Shown piece after piece: positions 3,351 to 11,591 of a stretch of DNA of 28,771 nucleotides (positions are counted from its first letter, which is position 1; each line of letters starts with the position of its first letter). The translations under genes were made by a program, and so were the position numbers. The stretch lies in the IMG/VR virus record IMGVR_UViG_3300005613_000320, positions 1 through 28,771 of that record; one strand, 5' to 3'. The DNA comes from a virus. The notes beneath the pieces were generated by a model. That model was not told the origin of the DNA, did not search any database, and saw only the letters and a list, made by a program, of their open reading frames with translations.

Positions 3351-3377
3351 GGGGTCAAGCAATTGACCCCTTTTTTT
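3351..3377 (+). terminator. Rho-independent terminator after gp32
   Basis: A perfect 8-bp stem GGGGTCAA (3351-3358) with TTGACCCC (3363-3370), GCAA tetraloop of the GNRA class, followed at once by seven T. It ends the gp32 transcript before it runs into the opposing gp54-like gene, whose stop codon overlaps the T tract. Confidence 0.92.
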
Positions 3378-4185
3378 ATGCAAATGGGTTTCTTACAGCA
3401 GTCACATCACTTTCAAATTTCTTCTGATCACCTTCATAAGAAATACGATCAACATAATAGTTTTCGTAAGTTAGATTAACTGTTGTTTGAATTAGTTGTG
3501 CTCCACCATACTGCAATGGTGCAGAAACAACACTTCTAGGGAATGCACCAGTCAAATTATAAGTGATTGTGCTTGGCGGAACCGATAGATTTGCTTCTAC
3601 AGTATCAAAGTCCTGATTTGCTTGAATAATTAGTTTATTGTTATCTGAGAACGCTTCCCGACTAAATGCAGATATTTGAACTTTGCACTTATATTCTTCA
3701 GGGTACTTCATTTTTCTATATGAAGCAGTTGCATCAATTCGTTCTCTTGTAGAAGAACCATGCCCACCACCCGCAATATATGTTGGTGAGATGAACTCTA
3801 ACCAAGCATTGAAGAGGTCATTAGTATAATAGTCTTGCTGGGTGAAGAATACTAATTGAATATCTGGAAATTGTCTATAATATGCATACTTACTAACAAC
3901 ACCCTGTCTTAGACCCCTTGCTTCACCAACTTGTAGGTCAGAACCTGGAAGAACTGCCTGTGAGCAGAATAAAGCCATGTAATCGCCGGGATTACTTGTA
4001 GTATTGGGTCTGTGTTGATTGAGAAAATTTTTCAGGTTGCCTGATGTGGTATTGAAGTCAATCCAGACATCATATAGGTTGTTAAACGCTGGTACAATGC
4101 TATTTTTAGCACCTAGATTGTACAATTCCCACGACGGCACATAGTATCTCTTTTCTGTAATTACATTTTGACTACTCTTTGCCAT
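3376..4185 (-). CDS. gp54-like baseplate tail-tube initiator
   Basis: A 269-residue protein with a tail-tube-type fold signature at its C-terminus. TYNLTGAFPRSVVSAPLQY near residue 209, then IQTTVNLTYENYYVD, parallels T4 gp54 (FTGCIPISVSAPELSYDG followed by a T-V-F-Y strand). In T4, gp54 sits on the gp48 cap and starts polymerisation of the gp19 tube. The first half (WELYNLGAKNSIVPAFNN) is not recognised. It lies on the minus strand, unlike gp48, gp53 and the other baseplate genes here, and is convergent with gp32. No clear ribosome site; a TATAAAC-like late element is about 15 bases upstream. A gp19-family tube paralogue is the alternative. Confidence 0.65.
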   Translation of the reverse strand: MAKSSQNVITEKRYYVPSWELYNLGAKNSIVPAFNNLYDVWIDFNTTSGNLKNFLNQHRPNTTSNPGDYMALFCSQAVLPGSDLQVGEARGLRQGVVSKYAYYRQFPDIQLVFFTQQDYYTNDLFNAWLEFISPTYIAGGGHGSSTRERIDATASYRKMKYPEEYKCKVQISAFSREAFSDNNKLIIQANQDFDTVEANLSVPPSTITYNLTGAFPRSVVSAPLQYGGAQLIQTTVNLTYENYYVDRISYEGDQKKFESDVTAVRNPFA

Positions 4186-4192
4186 CTAAATA
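4186..4192 (+). promoter_or_regulatory. CTAAATA late promoter motif
   Basis: CTAAATA begins one base beyond the start codon of the minus-strand gp54-like gene and points to the rightward genes (NUMOD protein, gp4, gp48 and on). Transcription would begin near 4199, just before the start at 4215. Confidence 0.5.
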
Positions 4193-4198
4193 CAAGGA

Positions 4199-4206
4199 CG
4201 TTTATA
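4199..4206 (-). promoter_or_regulatory. Possible late promoter of gp54-like gene
   Basis: The minus strand reads TATAAACG here, matching six of eight bases of TATAAATA, 13 bases before the ATG of the gp54-like gene. With the plus-strand CTAAATA at 4186-4192 it would make a compact two-way promoter region. Weak match. Confidence 0.3.
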
Positions 4207-4214
4207 TAGTATGT

Positions 4215-4619
4215 ATGTCTATTAGCGAAGCTTTGGGTATGCTTCCCTTTGAGGTCGATTTAGATAGTGCTAACTTTGAACCCTTTGATTGCTATTCACA
4301 ACCAGAACGCGAACGAAAAAGCAATATAACTTCATTTTATTGGAACAATCTTTCTGGTGAAGAAAGACTGGGGCGACTTGAAAATCACGGAATGACTGGA
4401 AAGAAACATTCCCAAGAAACCCGTGAAAAAATGTCTAAAAGTGCGATTGGAATAGAGCGTCCCAATATACGCAAGGCGGGCACTATTATAGCACCAAACG
4501 GTAAAAAAGTCAAGTTTCGATGTATATCACATTTTTGCAAAGAACATAATTTGCATAAGGGTCATATTACTGAAGTTTTGCAAGGTAAGAGAAAGTCACA
4601 TAAGGGGTGGCATCTATGA
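4215..4619 (+). CDS. NUMOD-type DNA-binding protein without nuclease domain
   Basis: A 134-residue protein. Near residue 60 is GKKHSQETREKMSKSAIG, a typical NUMOD3 repeat. The C-terminus (from GTIIAPNGKKVKF, ending in LQGKRKSHKGWHL) looks like the helix-turn-helix NUMOD1/IENR type found at the end of GIY-YIG and HNH homing endonucleases. No GIY-YIG or H-N-H catalytic motif is present, and the N-terminal 40 residues (MSISEALGMLPFEVDL) are not recognised. It may be a decayed homing endonuclease or a stand-alone DNA-binding protein. ATG 4211 is out of frame; a TTG at 4179 would lie inside the divergent gene. The stop overlaps the gp4 start (ATGA). Confidence 0.6.
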   Translation: MSISEALGMLPFEVDLDSANFEPFDCYSQPERERKSNITSFYWNNLSGEERLGRLENHGMTGKKHSQETREKMSKSAIGIERPNIRKAGTIIAPNGKKVKFRCISHFCKEHNLHKGHITEVLQGKRKSHKGWHL

Positions 4620-6981: not shown

Positions 6982-7656
6982 ATGGCTAAAGGATATTTTT
7001 CTTACTTTTCAAATTTAGAATTACCTTCCTTTACAGATGGTCGTAATTCCAGTTACGATTATGTAACTGTGAAGAACTTATTTCGTCGTGGAAAAATTAG
7101 GGAAGATTTTTTCCAGAATGCAACAGTATTTGATAAGTATTCGATCACTGGTGATGAGCGTCCAGATGAAGTCGCTAATAAAGTCTATGGTTCTCCCTTG
7201 TTAGATTGGGTTGTTCTAATTTCTAACAACGTCATCAATATTCGTGATGAATGGCCAATGGGTCAGACTGATTTCAACAACTATCTTGATGATAAGTACA
7301 GTCAAGACCAGTTGAATGAAATTCATCATTATGAAACAAAAGAACTAAAAGACGCTACTGGTAGTGTTCTACTTTCTTCTGGTCTGGTGGTAGATCAAAG
7401 TTATATCTTCATGTATACTGATCTATACGGAGATTTGCAAACAGTATCTGGATCTGATGTGGTAACTTCAGTTTCTTATTTTGATTATGAGCAAACGAAA
7501 AATGATGATAAGAGGTCTATTTTTATTCTGAGACCAGAGTATCTACAAACTGTAATTGATGATATGCGAGATATTATGACTTACACTGATAGTTCTCAAT
7601 ATATTGATAAGCGTACCAAAAAAGGTGCGAATGTGAGGATCTTAGATCCCCGCTAA
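6982..7656 (+). CDS. 53: gp53 baseplate wedge protein
   Basis: A 224-residue protein with the gp53 core: RPDEVANKVYGSPLLDWVVLISNN, matching RPEELANAIYGNPQLYWVLLMCND of T4. The start YFSYFSNLEL also parallels T4. gp53 joins wedges to one another around the hub. The C-terminal half (IFMYTDLYG onward, ending KGANVRILDPR) includes a strand-rich insert and a basic tail. Its TAA stop is part of a CTAAATA motif for gp26. The ribosome site is weak, so translation may depend on coupling to gp48. Confidence 0.9.
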   Translation: MAKGYFSYFSNLELPSFTDGRNSSYDYVTVKNLFRRGKIREDFFQNATVFDKYSITGDERPDEVANKVYGSPLLDWVVLISNNVINIRDEWPMGQTDFNNYLDDKYSQDQLNEIHHYETKELKDATGSVLLSSGLVVDQSYIFMYTDLYGDLQTVSGSDVVTSVSYFDYEQTKNDDKRSIFILRPEYLQTVIDDMRDIMTYTDSSQYIDKRTKKGANVRILDPR

Positions 7657-7680: not shown

Positions 7681-8412
7681 ATGCCATTACCAAAGGTTGT
7701 TACTCCTTCGTTTGAACTGAACTTGATTTCAACCGGCAAGACTGTAAAATACCGTCCATTCCTAGTCAAGGAAGAAAAGGTTCTACTGATTGCTACCGAA
7801 CGCGGGACTGAAAAAGATATTACTAATGCCGTAAAAGATGTTCTTAATGCTTGCATCCAAACTCGTGGTGTAAAAGCAGAGAACCTACCTAGTTTTGATC
7901 TGGAATATCTATTCCTGAACATTCGTGGTAAGTCGGTTGGTGAAAGCGTTGAAATTTTAGTTACTTGTAAGGATGATAATGAGACCCAGGTTCCACTGAC
8001 GGTCAGACTATCTGATATTACACTTGCTACACCAGAAGAGCACACTGATACTATTGATTTGGGTGGTGGTATTTTCCTTAAAATGAAGTACCCATCACTT
8101 CAACAATTTGTTGAAAATAACTTTGTAGTATCTGATGCTGGATCAAACCAAAACTTGATCGATAAAGCATTCAAAGCAATTGCTTCTTGTATTGAAAGTG
8201 TTTATCAGGGTGAGGAAGCATGGAGTGCATCTGACTGCACCGAAAAAGAACTGGTTGAGTTCCTTGAGCAGTTAGATTCTGTTAGGTTCTCAAAGGTCGA
8301 AGAGTTCTTCACGACAATGCCAAGGTTGTCTTATCGTACTACGGTCAAAAATCCCAAAACTGAAGTTGAATCAGAAGTCGTCATTGAGGGCTTATCTAAT
8401 TTTTTCGCATAA
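7681..8412 (+). CDS. 26: gp26 baseplate hub assembly protein
   Basis: A 243-residue protein with the T4 gp26-family N-terminus (LPKVVTPSFEL, then KTVKYRPFLVKEEKVLLIA) and the FDLEYLFLNIRGKSVGE segment. Gp26 is needed for hub assembly but may not remain in the finished baseplate. The last codons read TCT AAT TTT TTC GCA TAA, so a T TTT TTC slippery heptamer (8400-8406) lies just before the stop. A -1 shift there leads directly into the next ORF. A late motif precedes the gene; there is no strong ribosome site. Confidence 0.85.
   Translation: MPLPKVVTPSFELNLISTGKTVKYRPFLVKEEKVLLIATERGTEKDITNAVKDVLNACIQTRGVKAENLPSFDLEYLFLNIRGKSVGESVEILVTCKDDNETQVPLTVRLSDITLATPEEHTDTIDLGGGIFLKMKYPSLQQFVENNFVVSDAGSNQNLIDKAFKAIASCIESVYQGEEAWSASDCTEKELVEFLEQLDSVRFSKVEEFFTTMPRLSYRTTVKNPKTEVESEVVIEGLSNFFA
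8386..8406 (+). promoter_or_regulatory. Putative programmed -1 frameshift site (gp26 to gp51-like)
   Basis: T TTT TTC (8400-8406) is in the gp26 zero frame. A -1 slip places the ribosome in the frame of the 8412 ORF, which is open from 8400 (the previous stop in that frame is 8397-8399). GAGGG (8386-8390) lies 9 bases upstream of the heptamer, a position where Shine-Dalgarno-like sequences stimulate -1 shifting in dnaX. No strong downstream hairpin was found. Confidence 0.5.
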
Positions 8413-8600
8413 TGCTATATCACACAAGTTTGGACTCATACTTTGAGGACAACTTTGCTCTGATGCAACATCACAATTGGAGCTTGAGTGATATGGAAAA
8501 TATGATGCCGTGGGAACGAGAAATCTATGTGAAATATCTTGAGAATTACTTGGAGAAAAAACGTTTAGAAGCCGAGCAAGCAGCGAATGCAGCAACTTAG
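8412..8600 (+). CDS. gp51-like small hub-assembly/chaperone ORF
   Basis: A 62-residue acidic helical protein. YFEDNFALMQHHNWSLSDMENM is followed by MPWEREIYVKYLENYLEKK, an aromatic-acidic motif reminiscent of the second ORF of tail-assembly chaperone pairs. In T4 gene 51 (hub assembly catalyst, 249 residues) follows gene 26; this protein is far shorter and is placed mainly by synteny. ATG 8412 overlaps the gp26 stop (TAATG) and has no well-spaced ribosome site. It may be made by reinitiation, by -1 frameshifting as a gp26 fusion, or both. It overlaps the tape-measure-like gene by 14 bases. Confidence 0.6.
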   Translation: MLYHTSLDSYFEDNFALMQHHNWSLSDMENMMPWEREIYVKYLENYLEKKRLEAEQAANAAT

Positions 8601-10290
8601 TTACATTCCATCTATTAATATGCCTCGCCCCGGTCAAAAGACTAGGCAGGAGGCAGCTCGGATGTGGGCACTAGGACAATCTGCTGAGAAAAACCAAAAG
8701 CGATTGCTAACGTTGGCGTCTCCACAGACGCAAATGCTTGCTTCATGGAAACCTAGTAAATCAGAACCTGCTTTGGGTGAAGGTCAGGGTCCAGACATCC
8801 AACGTAGAATGTCTGCTGCCTTTGATAGACTAGAAGCAGAAAAACTAGTACAAGAAACTGCAACAAAGGTAGATAGTAAAACTACCAGACAATTAGGAAA
8901 ACTGGTTCTAGAATTTGAGCAAGTCAATAATAATTTGTTAGGTATTCAGAAAGGAATTAAGAAAGATATTAGAGAAAGAAATAAGTTTTTCGATAAAAAA
9001 AAGAAATTACAAGAAAAGGAAGAAAAAGAACTGAAGTCCCTGAAGGGGGCATTCTTTGGATTCCGTGCAAGAGTTGGTGCTGTTAGTGGTGCTATTGCCC
9101 TAAAAGAACTTGCAGAAGGTGATGTTGCAGGTGCTGTTCAACCTGCTGCTGTTGCCGTCGCATCATTCCTACCAGAGATCGTCAACATCACCTCATCTGT
9201 GGTCCTAGGAGGACTTGCTCTAAGGGGTCTAGGGGGCGGCAGAGGACGTGTTGCTGCTACTGCTGGTGCTCGTGCTCCTAGGGTCCGTGGAGGCGGCAGA
9301 GCAGGTCTCCTGTTGGGTGCTGGTGGTCTGGCTCTTGGTGCCGCTGGTATGGGAATGCTTGGTGGTGATAGTGAAGAACGAAGACAGGAACTAGTTGCTC
9401 AGGCAACGGCAGAAAATACTATTGCTCCAGAAGATGTAAATAGATTTTCTTCTCAACTGACCAGATTCAATAAGGTCATTGATCTAATGTTGCAGAGGAT
9501 GAAAGGTAAGGATGATCCTACATTCACTCCTCATAAAGATGAAACTGGAATTATACAAACATCTAATAAAGTTCCTGGTAGAAAACCATTAATGAGTGCT
9601 GGTGGTAATGTATTCAGTCAGATTGATGTTAATGATCCAGAAGCAAAGGCATTTATTGCAACTGTAAGACAACTAGAAGGAACTGCAGGATCAGGGGGAT
9701 ATAATACTTGGTTTGGTGGAAGGACCGACATGGATCTTTCCAAGATGACTGTTAGTCAGGTTGTAGCAGAACAGAAGCGAAGACTTGCAACTGGTGAAGC
9801 AACTTATGGTAAATATACTTCCGCTGCTGTAGGTGCTGGTCAGTTTATGAAACCAGAGGAAACAGTTCGTGAAATGGGATTGGATCCTGATAAGGTAAAA
9901 TATACACCAGAATTGCAGAACAAGATGATCTTGTTCCAATCAATGAAACGTCGTGGCGTTGATCCTACCAAACCATTGTCCATTGAGGATGTTAGAAAAC
10001 TTGGTAAGGAATGGGCAAGTTTTACACCACATTATGGACAAACTGATAGAACTGCTGGTGAATCTTTGCGTATCTATGAGCAAAACTTAGATAAAGCAAG
10101 GCAACTACAATCTACGGCACCTACAACAGGACAACCCATGCTTATGAACTTAACTGTTCCTGGGCAAACTCAGACTGTAACACAGGCACCACCACAGCAG
10201 GTTGAGTCACAATCAACACCATACATTGATACGAATTATCCTAGTAATGATAGATTTGCTTCTAATCTACTACTTGGAGCATTCGCATGA
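8587..10290 (+). CDS. Tape-measure-like hub protein with muramidase-like domain
   Basis: A 567-residue protein. Residues 75-150 form a charged coiled coil; 155-260 are Gly/Ala-rich and hydrophobic, with glycine-zipper character. Residues 350-500 resemble a lysozyme/lytic transglycosylase of the GH104-like kind: an ATVRQLEGT helix with E364 as candidate catalytic acid, GYNTWFGG, then DLSKMTVSQVV and SAAVGAGQFM. A P/Q/T-rich tail follows. By order (gp26, gp51-like, this gene, next gene, gp27) it occupies the place of T4 genes 28/29, so a tape-measure role is likely, with a cell-wall-cutting domain in place of the lysozyme absent from gp5 here. The enzymatic claim is inference from pattern. ATG 8620 is an alternative start. 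Confidence 0.6.
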   Translation: MQQLSYIPSINMPRPGQKTRQEAARMWALGQSAEKNQKRLLTLASPQTQMLASWKPSKSEPALGEGQGPDIQRRMSAAFDRLEAEKLVQETATKVDSKTTRQLGKLVLEFEQVNNNLLGIQKGIKKDIRERNKFFDKKKKLQEKEEKELKSLKGAFFGFRARVGAVSGAIALKELAEGDVAGAVQPAAVAVASFLPEIVNITSSVVLGGLALRGLGGGRGRVAATAGARAPRVRGGGRAGLLLGAGGLALGAAGMGMLGGDSEERRQELVAQATAENTIAPEDVNRFSSQLTRFNKVIDLMLQRMKGKDDPTFTPHKDETGIIQTSNKVPGRKPLMSAGGNVFSQIDVNDPEAKAFIATVRQLEGTAGSGGYNTWFGGRTDMDLSKMTVSQVVAEQKRRLATGEATYGKYTSAAVGAGQFMKPEETVREMGLDPDKVKYTPELQNKMILFQSMKRRGVDPTKPLSIEDVRKLGKEWASFTPHYGQTDRTAGESLRIYEQNLDKARQLQSTAPTTGQPMLMNLTVPGQTQTVTQAPPQQVESQSTPYIDTNYPSNDRFASNLLLGAFA

Positions 10291-11591
10291 ACTATCTAAA
10301 GTTATCTTCAGTAGCACAGCAAACTGGTAGAAGTGCAGTTGATCTACAAAAGTTCTTTGCACAAAGCCAGAAAGAACTTGTTGTTCAGCAAAAAGAAGAA
10401 CTAAAGCAAGAAGAAAAACTTATTGCTACTAGAAAAGACGTATTCAGATCTCTTCTAGATCAAGTAGAAGAAGCAAAGAACGCACAATCAAAGAACAGTC
10501 CTTTAGGAACACTTTTAGGTGCTCTTGGATTAGGTGGTCTTGCTTCAGGTCTAAAAAGTATCAAAGCACCAAAACCAAGTGTTCCTAAACTTCCAACGGG
10601 TGTAAAAATCCCCAAACCAAATCTTGGTGGTATCAAATCACCAAGGGTTCCTAAAGTTGGTCTTGGTCGTGCTATCCCTGGTCTCAATATTGCCTTGACT
10701 GGTGTTGATTTTATTCAGCGAAAGCAGGAAGGACAGACCAATCTACAGGCAGGAGCAGGCGCTGTAGGCGGTCTAGCAGGTGCTCTAGCAGGTGGTAAAG
10801 CGGGCGCAGCGCTTGGTGCTGGTATTGGTGCTCTATTCGGCGGTGTAGGCGCTGCTCCAGGTGCCCTGATCGGTGGTCTGCTTGGTAGTGTTGCTGGTGG
10901 TTTTGCTGGTAGTGGTCTTGCAGATACTTTGACTGGTGCTAATTCCACTGATGAAAGAGTAGCACAATTGCGAAGAGAAAAACTTAACCTTGGACCATCA
11001 AAGTTTTCGTCAGCGTTGGATCAATTTGATGTTGCTATCAACAATCTGACTAAGTTAGCTGCTTCACTTGGTGTAACTGAAACTAAACTAAAAAAACTGG
11101 ACGGTAGTCGTGATCTCACAGGTCCAGGAGAACAACCTAAGGATGAACGTTCCCTTGAAGACATTATCAATGAACCATATACTGCCGATCAAATTGATGA
11201 TACAGAAACATCACCAGCACCAGATGGTGGATCTTATATACCAGATCCAGAAATCTTCAGCAAACCAAGTACACCAATGCCGGATGCATCTAGACCGGGT
11301 GCATTATCTGATCCATCTAATCCAGATAGTCCAAGAATTGGTGAGCAGGTTGGTGCTGCTCCGATGCCTCAGATGGGCAGCACTTTATTAGCAGTGTCCG
11401 AAACTTTTACTAAAGAAACTCAAATGTCTGCCGGACAGGACAGTGTATTGATGATTAATAATCAACCAAATACTGTGGTGGCGATGTCTCCACAGATGCA
11501 ACAACCTATGGGTGGAGGCGGATCTACTCCACCATCATCCTACGATAATGCAACTAAATACGCACAGATGATCAGTAGTTTGACGAGATAA
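10287..11591 (+). CDS. Glycine-zipper tail/hub protein (gp28/29 position)
   Basis: A 434-residue protein with an N-terminal charged coiled coil (about residues 15-65), a P/K-rich linker (91-125) with repeated K-P and G-G elements, a strongly Gly/Ala-rich hydrophobic stretch at about 155-210 of glycine-zipper type (GGLAGALAGGKAGAALGAG), a helical segment, and a P/S/D-rich low-complexity region at about 275-355. It has the same general plan as the preceding protein but no muramidase-like domain. The start overlaps the previous stop (ATGA). It may be the tape measure proper or a membrane-piercing hub protein ejected with the DNA. I cannot equate it with a T4 gene from sequence alone. Confidence 0.6.
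   Translation: MNYLKLSSVAQQTGRSAVDLQKFFAQSQKELVVQQKEELKQEEKLIATRKDVFRSLLDQVEEAKNAQSKNSPLGTLLGALGLGGLASGLKSIKAPKPSVPKLPTGVKIPKPNLGGIKSPRVPKVGLGRAIPGLNIALTGVDFIQRKQEGQTNLQAGAGAVGGLAGALAGGKAGAALGAGIGALFGGVGAAPGALIGGLLGSVAGGFAGSGLADTLTGANSTDERVAQLRREKLNLGPSKFSSALDQFDVAINNLTKLAASLGVTETKLKKLDGSRDLTGPGEQPKDERSLEDIINEPYTADQIDDTETSPAPDGGSYIPDPEIFSKPSTPMPDASRPGALSDPSNPDSPRIGEQVGAAPMPQMGSTLLAVSETFTKETQMSAGQDSVLMINNQPNTVVAMSPQMQQPMGGGGSTPPSSYDNATKYAQMISSLTR

Follow-up and report, generated by a model that had tools for sequence, protein, structure and literature searches.

Introduction

Frameshifting of the G-T type is widespread among long-tailed phages, with T4 listed as the exception (PMC5009743, a review), and the lambda G/GT case (Levin, 1993; Xu, 2004) is covered in the same review (PMC5009743). 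In T4 itself, gp51 counts as an essential protein of unknown function (PMC3004832). The locus described here, in which a short gp51-like open reading frame (ORF) overlaps the end of gene 26 of a T4-like virus, raises the question of whether the two are separate proteins or one gene read in two frames, and the comparison of gp26 with gp51 bears directly on the position of T4 as an exception. The original prediction was that a -1 frameshift joins them and that this had gone undescribed in T4-like phages. The second point has to be withdrawn: according to PMC12846349 and PMC10885494, Vladimirov, Gautam and Davidson (2022; Virology 566:9-15) had already identified the tail chaperone genes of T4-like phages. 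The TAC-N genes of such phages are described, with credit to that study, as having known poly-T slip sites (PMC12846349), and some T4-like phages instead carry one short and one long gene (PMC10885494). Since poly-T sites and chaperones of T4-like phages are already in print, the frameshift predicted here is a well-supported case of a described kind. We found no account in the open-access literature of its spread to Ackermannviridae with a relaxed site, of a clade-specific hairpin or of a coding test upstream of the possible starts.

The gp26 Locus and the Predicted Frameshift

The window, i.e., the whole stretch of DNA analysed, comprises the 28,771 nt of IMG/VR record IMGVR_UViG_3300005613_000320, from a T4-like (cyanophage-type) virus. 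Judging from PHROG and Pfam profile matches, it is filled by a structural gene block of that type, with the following features.

3376-4185, minus strand: tail tube family protein (phrog_45, PF23849)
Between the tail tube gene and gp53: gp4-, gp2- and gp48-like proteins
6982-7656: gp53, just before gp26
7681-8412, plus strand: gp26 (TAC-N, putative short chaperone), 243 aa (PF12322, phrog_150; AlphaFold pLDDT 87)
8386-8390, plus strand: SD-like GAGGG, probable 5' stimulator, 9 nt upstream of the heptamer (from sequence)
8400-8406, plus strand: slippery heptamer T TTT TTC (conserved in relatives, single codon at both Phe)
8410-8412, plus strand: gp26 stop codon TAA, one codon past the shift site
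8400-8600, plus strand: predicted -1 frame extension, made up of the shift site and a C-terminal gp51-like domain, stop at 8598-8600 (phrog_634, alignment, synonymous pattern)
8412-8600, plus strand: gp51-like ORF from ATG 8412 in the style of existing annotation, 62 aa, possible re-initiation product
8413-8467, plus strand: predicted downstream RNA fold, possible 3' stimulator, low confidence (z -2.65)
8587-10290, plus strand: next gene, 567 aa, candidate client (tape measure) from the phiM12 annotation at a comparable place

The minus-strand tail tube gene adjoins the gp4/gp2/gp48-like genes, and a second tail tube gene lies at a comparable place in phiM12. A homing-endonuclease-type remnant with NUMOD3 and I-HmuI NUMOD-like domains (4179-4619) overlaps the starts of both the gp4 head-closure gene (4607) and the tail tube gene (4185).

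Both partners of the junction belong to known families. The gp26 protein matches PF12322 over residues 9-243 of 243 (E 1.7e-70) as well as phrog_150 (E 3.2e-76), and the 62-aa ORF matches phrog_634, annotated as baseplate hub assembly catalyst, over positions 59-118 of the 121 of the profile (E 8.2e-24). T4 gp28, considered as a third relative of gp26, gave no profile match. In the zero frame gp26 ends with ATT GAG GGC TTA TCT AAT TTT TTC GCA TAA TG. A TAA at 8397-8399 closes the -1 frame just before the heptamer, and from there the frame is open from 8400 to 8597, giving a predicted gp26-51 fusion of 306 aa. The positions originally given for the heptamer, this stop, GAGGG and the ATG all proved correct. 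The ATG at 8412 overlaps the gp26 stop, so that re-initiation could also yield the 62-aa protein alone.

The gp26 gene is very probably joined to the gp51-like ORF by a programmed -1 frameshift at T TTT TTC. Most ribosomes would terminate at 8410-8412 and release gp26, the short tail assembly chaperone (TAC-N) of 243 aa, and a fraction would slip back by one base on the heptamer, aided by pairing of the upstream GAGGG with 16S rRNA and perhaps also by downstream RNA structure. The slipped ribosomes would then read the -1 frame to 8597 and produce the 306-aa fusion (TAC-NC), with a small helical domain at its C-terminal end. If the pair works like lambda G/GT, gp26 would coat the tape measure protein, and the added domain of the fusion would recruit the tail tube or hub; T4 would obtain the same two proteins from two genes, 26 and 51. 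We infer from the sequences that slippage occurs, together with its rate, its stimulators and the chaperone role.

Conservation of the Slip Site and Its Surroundings

Altogether about 110 related loci were compared, among them a near-relative set from IMG/VR, 80 loci in which gp26 shows 52-70% protein identity. In 80/80 of these the heptamer is present one codon ahead of the stop and the -1 frame runs open into the gp51-like protein, and in no relative does a stop separate the two ORFs, which bears out the -1 frameshift reading. TTTTTTC by itself is not unusual in the window (11 occurrences against 8.8 expected); chance is excluded by the conservation of the heptamer and by the single codon used at each of its two Phe residues, not by its rarity. 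Codon usage in 61 aligned genes, which are related sequences and therefore do not give independent counts, although third positions elsewhere in them vary freely, singles out the same site: among 52 columns with an invariant residue (Met and Trp left out), only F241 (TTT) and F242 (TTC) are encoded by a single codon, compared with a mean top-codon share of 77% in 28 two-fold control columns. The Phe-Phe pair is TTT TTC in all 61 genes at the site and in only 4 of 61 Phe-Phe cases elsewhere in the gene.

The putative 5' stimulator is tied to a Glu-Gly pair, whose Glu is GAG in 51/61 of these related, non-independent sequences; in the gene body GAG accounts for 30% of Glu codons. Of the 10 sequences with GAA at this place, 8 have GGG as the next codon. 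Downstream of the heptamer, 45-nt stretches fold better than their shuffles (mean z -2.1), and the window's own 64-nt stretch at 8407-8470 reaches z -2.65. A set of 25 cyanophage sequences has an 11-bp hairpin starting 5 nt past the heptamer. Pairing holds in 89.8% of its cells, both sides have changed in 9 cells, and the covariation score is 0.193; slid controls give 28-52% paired and a covariation of at most 0.097. This hairpin is absent from the window and its clade. A single downstream structure common to all 61 sequences was sought with RNAalifold and none was found.

T4 gp51 and the Likely Role of the Two Predicted Products

Comparison with T4-type phages gives the two products a likely identity. 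T4 gp26, which belongs to the same family (PF12322, phrog_150), ends in GAG TTC TTT GAG TTA CTA TAA with no slip site and with gene 25 next, and gene 51 is a separate gene on the opposite strand from gene 26; in Tulanevirus and Pseudotevenvirus, too, gp51 is full-length with a gene of its own, and the site is missing. The T4-type gp51 (250 aa) aligns with the predicted fusion across the junction over 246 columns (hhalign Prob 99.1, E 6.7e-18). It matches phrog_150 from end to end, its C-terminal part also matches phrog_634, and its N-terminal domain is shared with T4-type gp26 (hhalign Prob 97.5). T4 gp51 is thus the in-frame equivalent of the predicted fusion, the difference being that T4 has two genes, with TTC TTT in place of TTT TTC and gp51 on the other strand, whereas the window has one gene and a predicted frameshift. 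As the T4-type phages examined have two genes and no site, and the others one gene with the site, the phages sampled show either arrangement in a complementary distribution. In cyanophages, what is annotated as gp51 therefore probably forms the C-terminal portion of a larger product.

In our view gp26 and the fusion are most plausibly the short and long tail assembly chaperones, made via a -1 frameshift, because of the conservation of the site, the coding pattern of the -1 frame (below) and the end-to-end alignment of T4 gp51 with the fusion. A short and a long form with a common N-terminal domain is also what the sequence predicts here. The equivalence to lambda G/GT that had been proposed is strengthened by the T4 gp51 alignment and only weakly by fold. 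The gp26 and -1 ORF models were computed apart, not as a fusion; that of gp26 matches gp26-family models in BFVD but, in Foldseek, no PDB chain significantly, the highest probability listed (0.30, with E 3.2) being that of the HK97 tail assembly chaperone 2ob9. The extension is modelled as a small helical domain with weak matches to a gp51 and to a tail chaperone, and a sequence search for a solved structure found none. The two systems differ in their slip sites, T TTT TTC in the window and G GGA AAG in lambda.

Alternatively, gp26 and the fusion could be parts of the baseplate hub, as annotated, with the frameshift setting the ratio of two hub proteins. Such a role would agree with the hub annotation in most records, with T4 genetics, which links gp26 to the hub (PMC3004832), and with the state of the next gene. 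Two large ORFs, 8587-10290 and 10287-11591, follow the 62-aa ORF in the window, and the identification of the next gene (8587-10290) as a tape measure, part of the original argument, could not be established: its 567-aa product has no PHROG or Pfam match, and it is a candidate, the gene at the comparable place in phiM12 being annotated as similar to tape measure proteins. We nevertheless regard a hub role as unlikely, as the making of two products through a -1 shift is typical of tail chaperones, gp51 is needed yet absent from the particle (PMC3004832), the title of Vladimirov et al. (2022) assigns chaperones to T4-like phages and the fold match, weak as it is, is to the HK97 chaperone. As a separate observation, the product of 8587-10290 contains the stretch GTAGSGGYNTWFGGRTDMDL, which by eye resembles part of a lysozyme or transglycosylase.

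Coding Pattern of the -1 Frame Upstream of Any Start

Evidence for the joining of the two frames comes from the few codons between the slip site and the possible starts. Directly after the heptamer, the zero frame of the 81 loci encodes Ala in 52, Gly in 23, Glu in 3 and other residues in 3, whereas the -1-frame codon at this place is Arg in 78/81. In 23 loci the extension has no ATG ahead of its residue 8. Over the three codons from the gp26 stop up to that residue in these loci, single-base differences had a synonymous to non-synonymous ratio of 273:30 in the -1 frame, against 36:261 and 0:287 in the other frames. Because the codons tested precede any ATG, a later start cannot account for the 273:30, and this pattern of differences indicates that the -1 frame is translated as a continuation of gp26.

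These data also weigh on translational coupling, in which translation of the gp51-like domain as its own protein would begin at an ATG that overlaps or closely follows the gp26 stop, the heptamer being incidental. Such coupling would fit the TAATG overlap of the window, the separate gp51 of the records and the 58/61 relatives that carry an in-frame ATG 4-8 codons past the slip site. It would maintain neither both Phe codons nor coding evolution upstream of the ATG, however, and none of the common starts occurs there in Aeromonas phage Aeh1, Desulfovibrio phage 7757 or Methylophilales phage Melnitz-2 (no ATG, GTG or TTG in the first 16 -1-frame codons). As a replacement for the frameshift, coupling is thus most improbable; it may operate alongside frameshifting.

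Spread Among T4-Like Phages

The same kind of site recurs well beyond the near relatives. TTTTTTC, TTTTTTG or TTTTTTT, each time with the -1 frame open, is present in KVP40-type Vibrio and Aeh1-type Aeromonas phages as well as in phages of Stenotrophomonas, Rhizobium, Sinorhizobium, Xanthomonas and Desulfovibrio. Only T TTC is kept in Ackermannviridae, where the P site is relaxed (AATTTTC, GATTTTC), the -1 frame is open and the next gene encodes a gp5-like lysozyme. Among them, the gp26 of Serratia phage 3M carries GGTTTTC with an open -1 frame, a relaxed site of the same kind as that of the T7 gene 10 frameshift, with G_GU at the P site (PMC5009743), in an unrelated capsid gene. The chaperone frameshift of Vandenendeviridae and Andersonviridae likewise combines a poly-T site, a -1 shift and a stop-free open frame in relatives, and is argued along similar lines, with the differences that the motif is GTTTTT and that other phage families are concerned (PMC12846349).

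In all 81 loci the T run is six T ending in an invariant C. Transcriptional slippage on the run, which would give mRNAs with an altered number of U and normal translation, has in its favour the homopolymer itself and the seven T of Melnitz-2, but is made extremely improbable by this fixed length and by the Ackermannviridae, whose four T are short for polymerase slippage.

That programmed frameshifting, our preferred reading of the locus, is also the ancestral route to the tail chaperone pair across T4-like phages can be proposed tentatively, at somewhat less than even likelihood. According to this proposal, which covers Kyanoviridae, KVP40- and Aeh1-like Straboviridae, the Rhizobium, Sinorhizobium, Stenotrophomonas, Xanthomonas and Desulfovibrio phages and Ackermannviridae, T4 would have switched by gene duplication, Ackermannviridae would use a relaxed N NTT TTC site with an unannotated C-terminal domain, and cyanophages would have a clade-specific 3' hairpin. 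The predicted production of the gp51 equivalent as a frameshifted gp26 in relatives suggests that it is T4 that is derived. In Cronobacter phage Invicta (2501-3794), the genes for a full-length gp51 and for gp26 follow one another on the same strand, whereas the T4 pair is divergent; the tandem may possibly be left over from the duplication by which the frameshift would have been replaced.

The C-terminal part of the predicted long protein is missing from the annotation of several Ackermannviridae and Aeromonas phage records, and in the public records of Mooltan, Serratia 3M, Klebsiella 0507-KN2-1, Aeh1 and avDM12 the -1 extension downstream of gp26 is unannotated.
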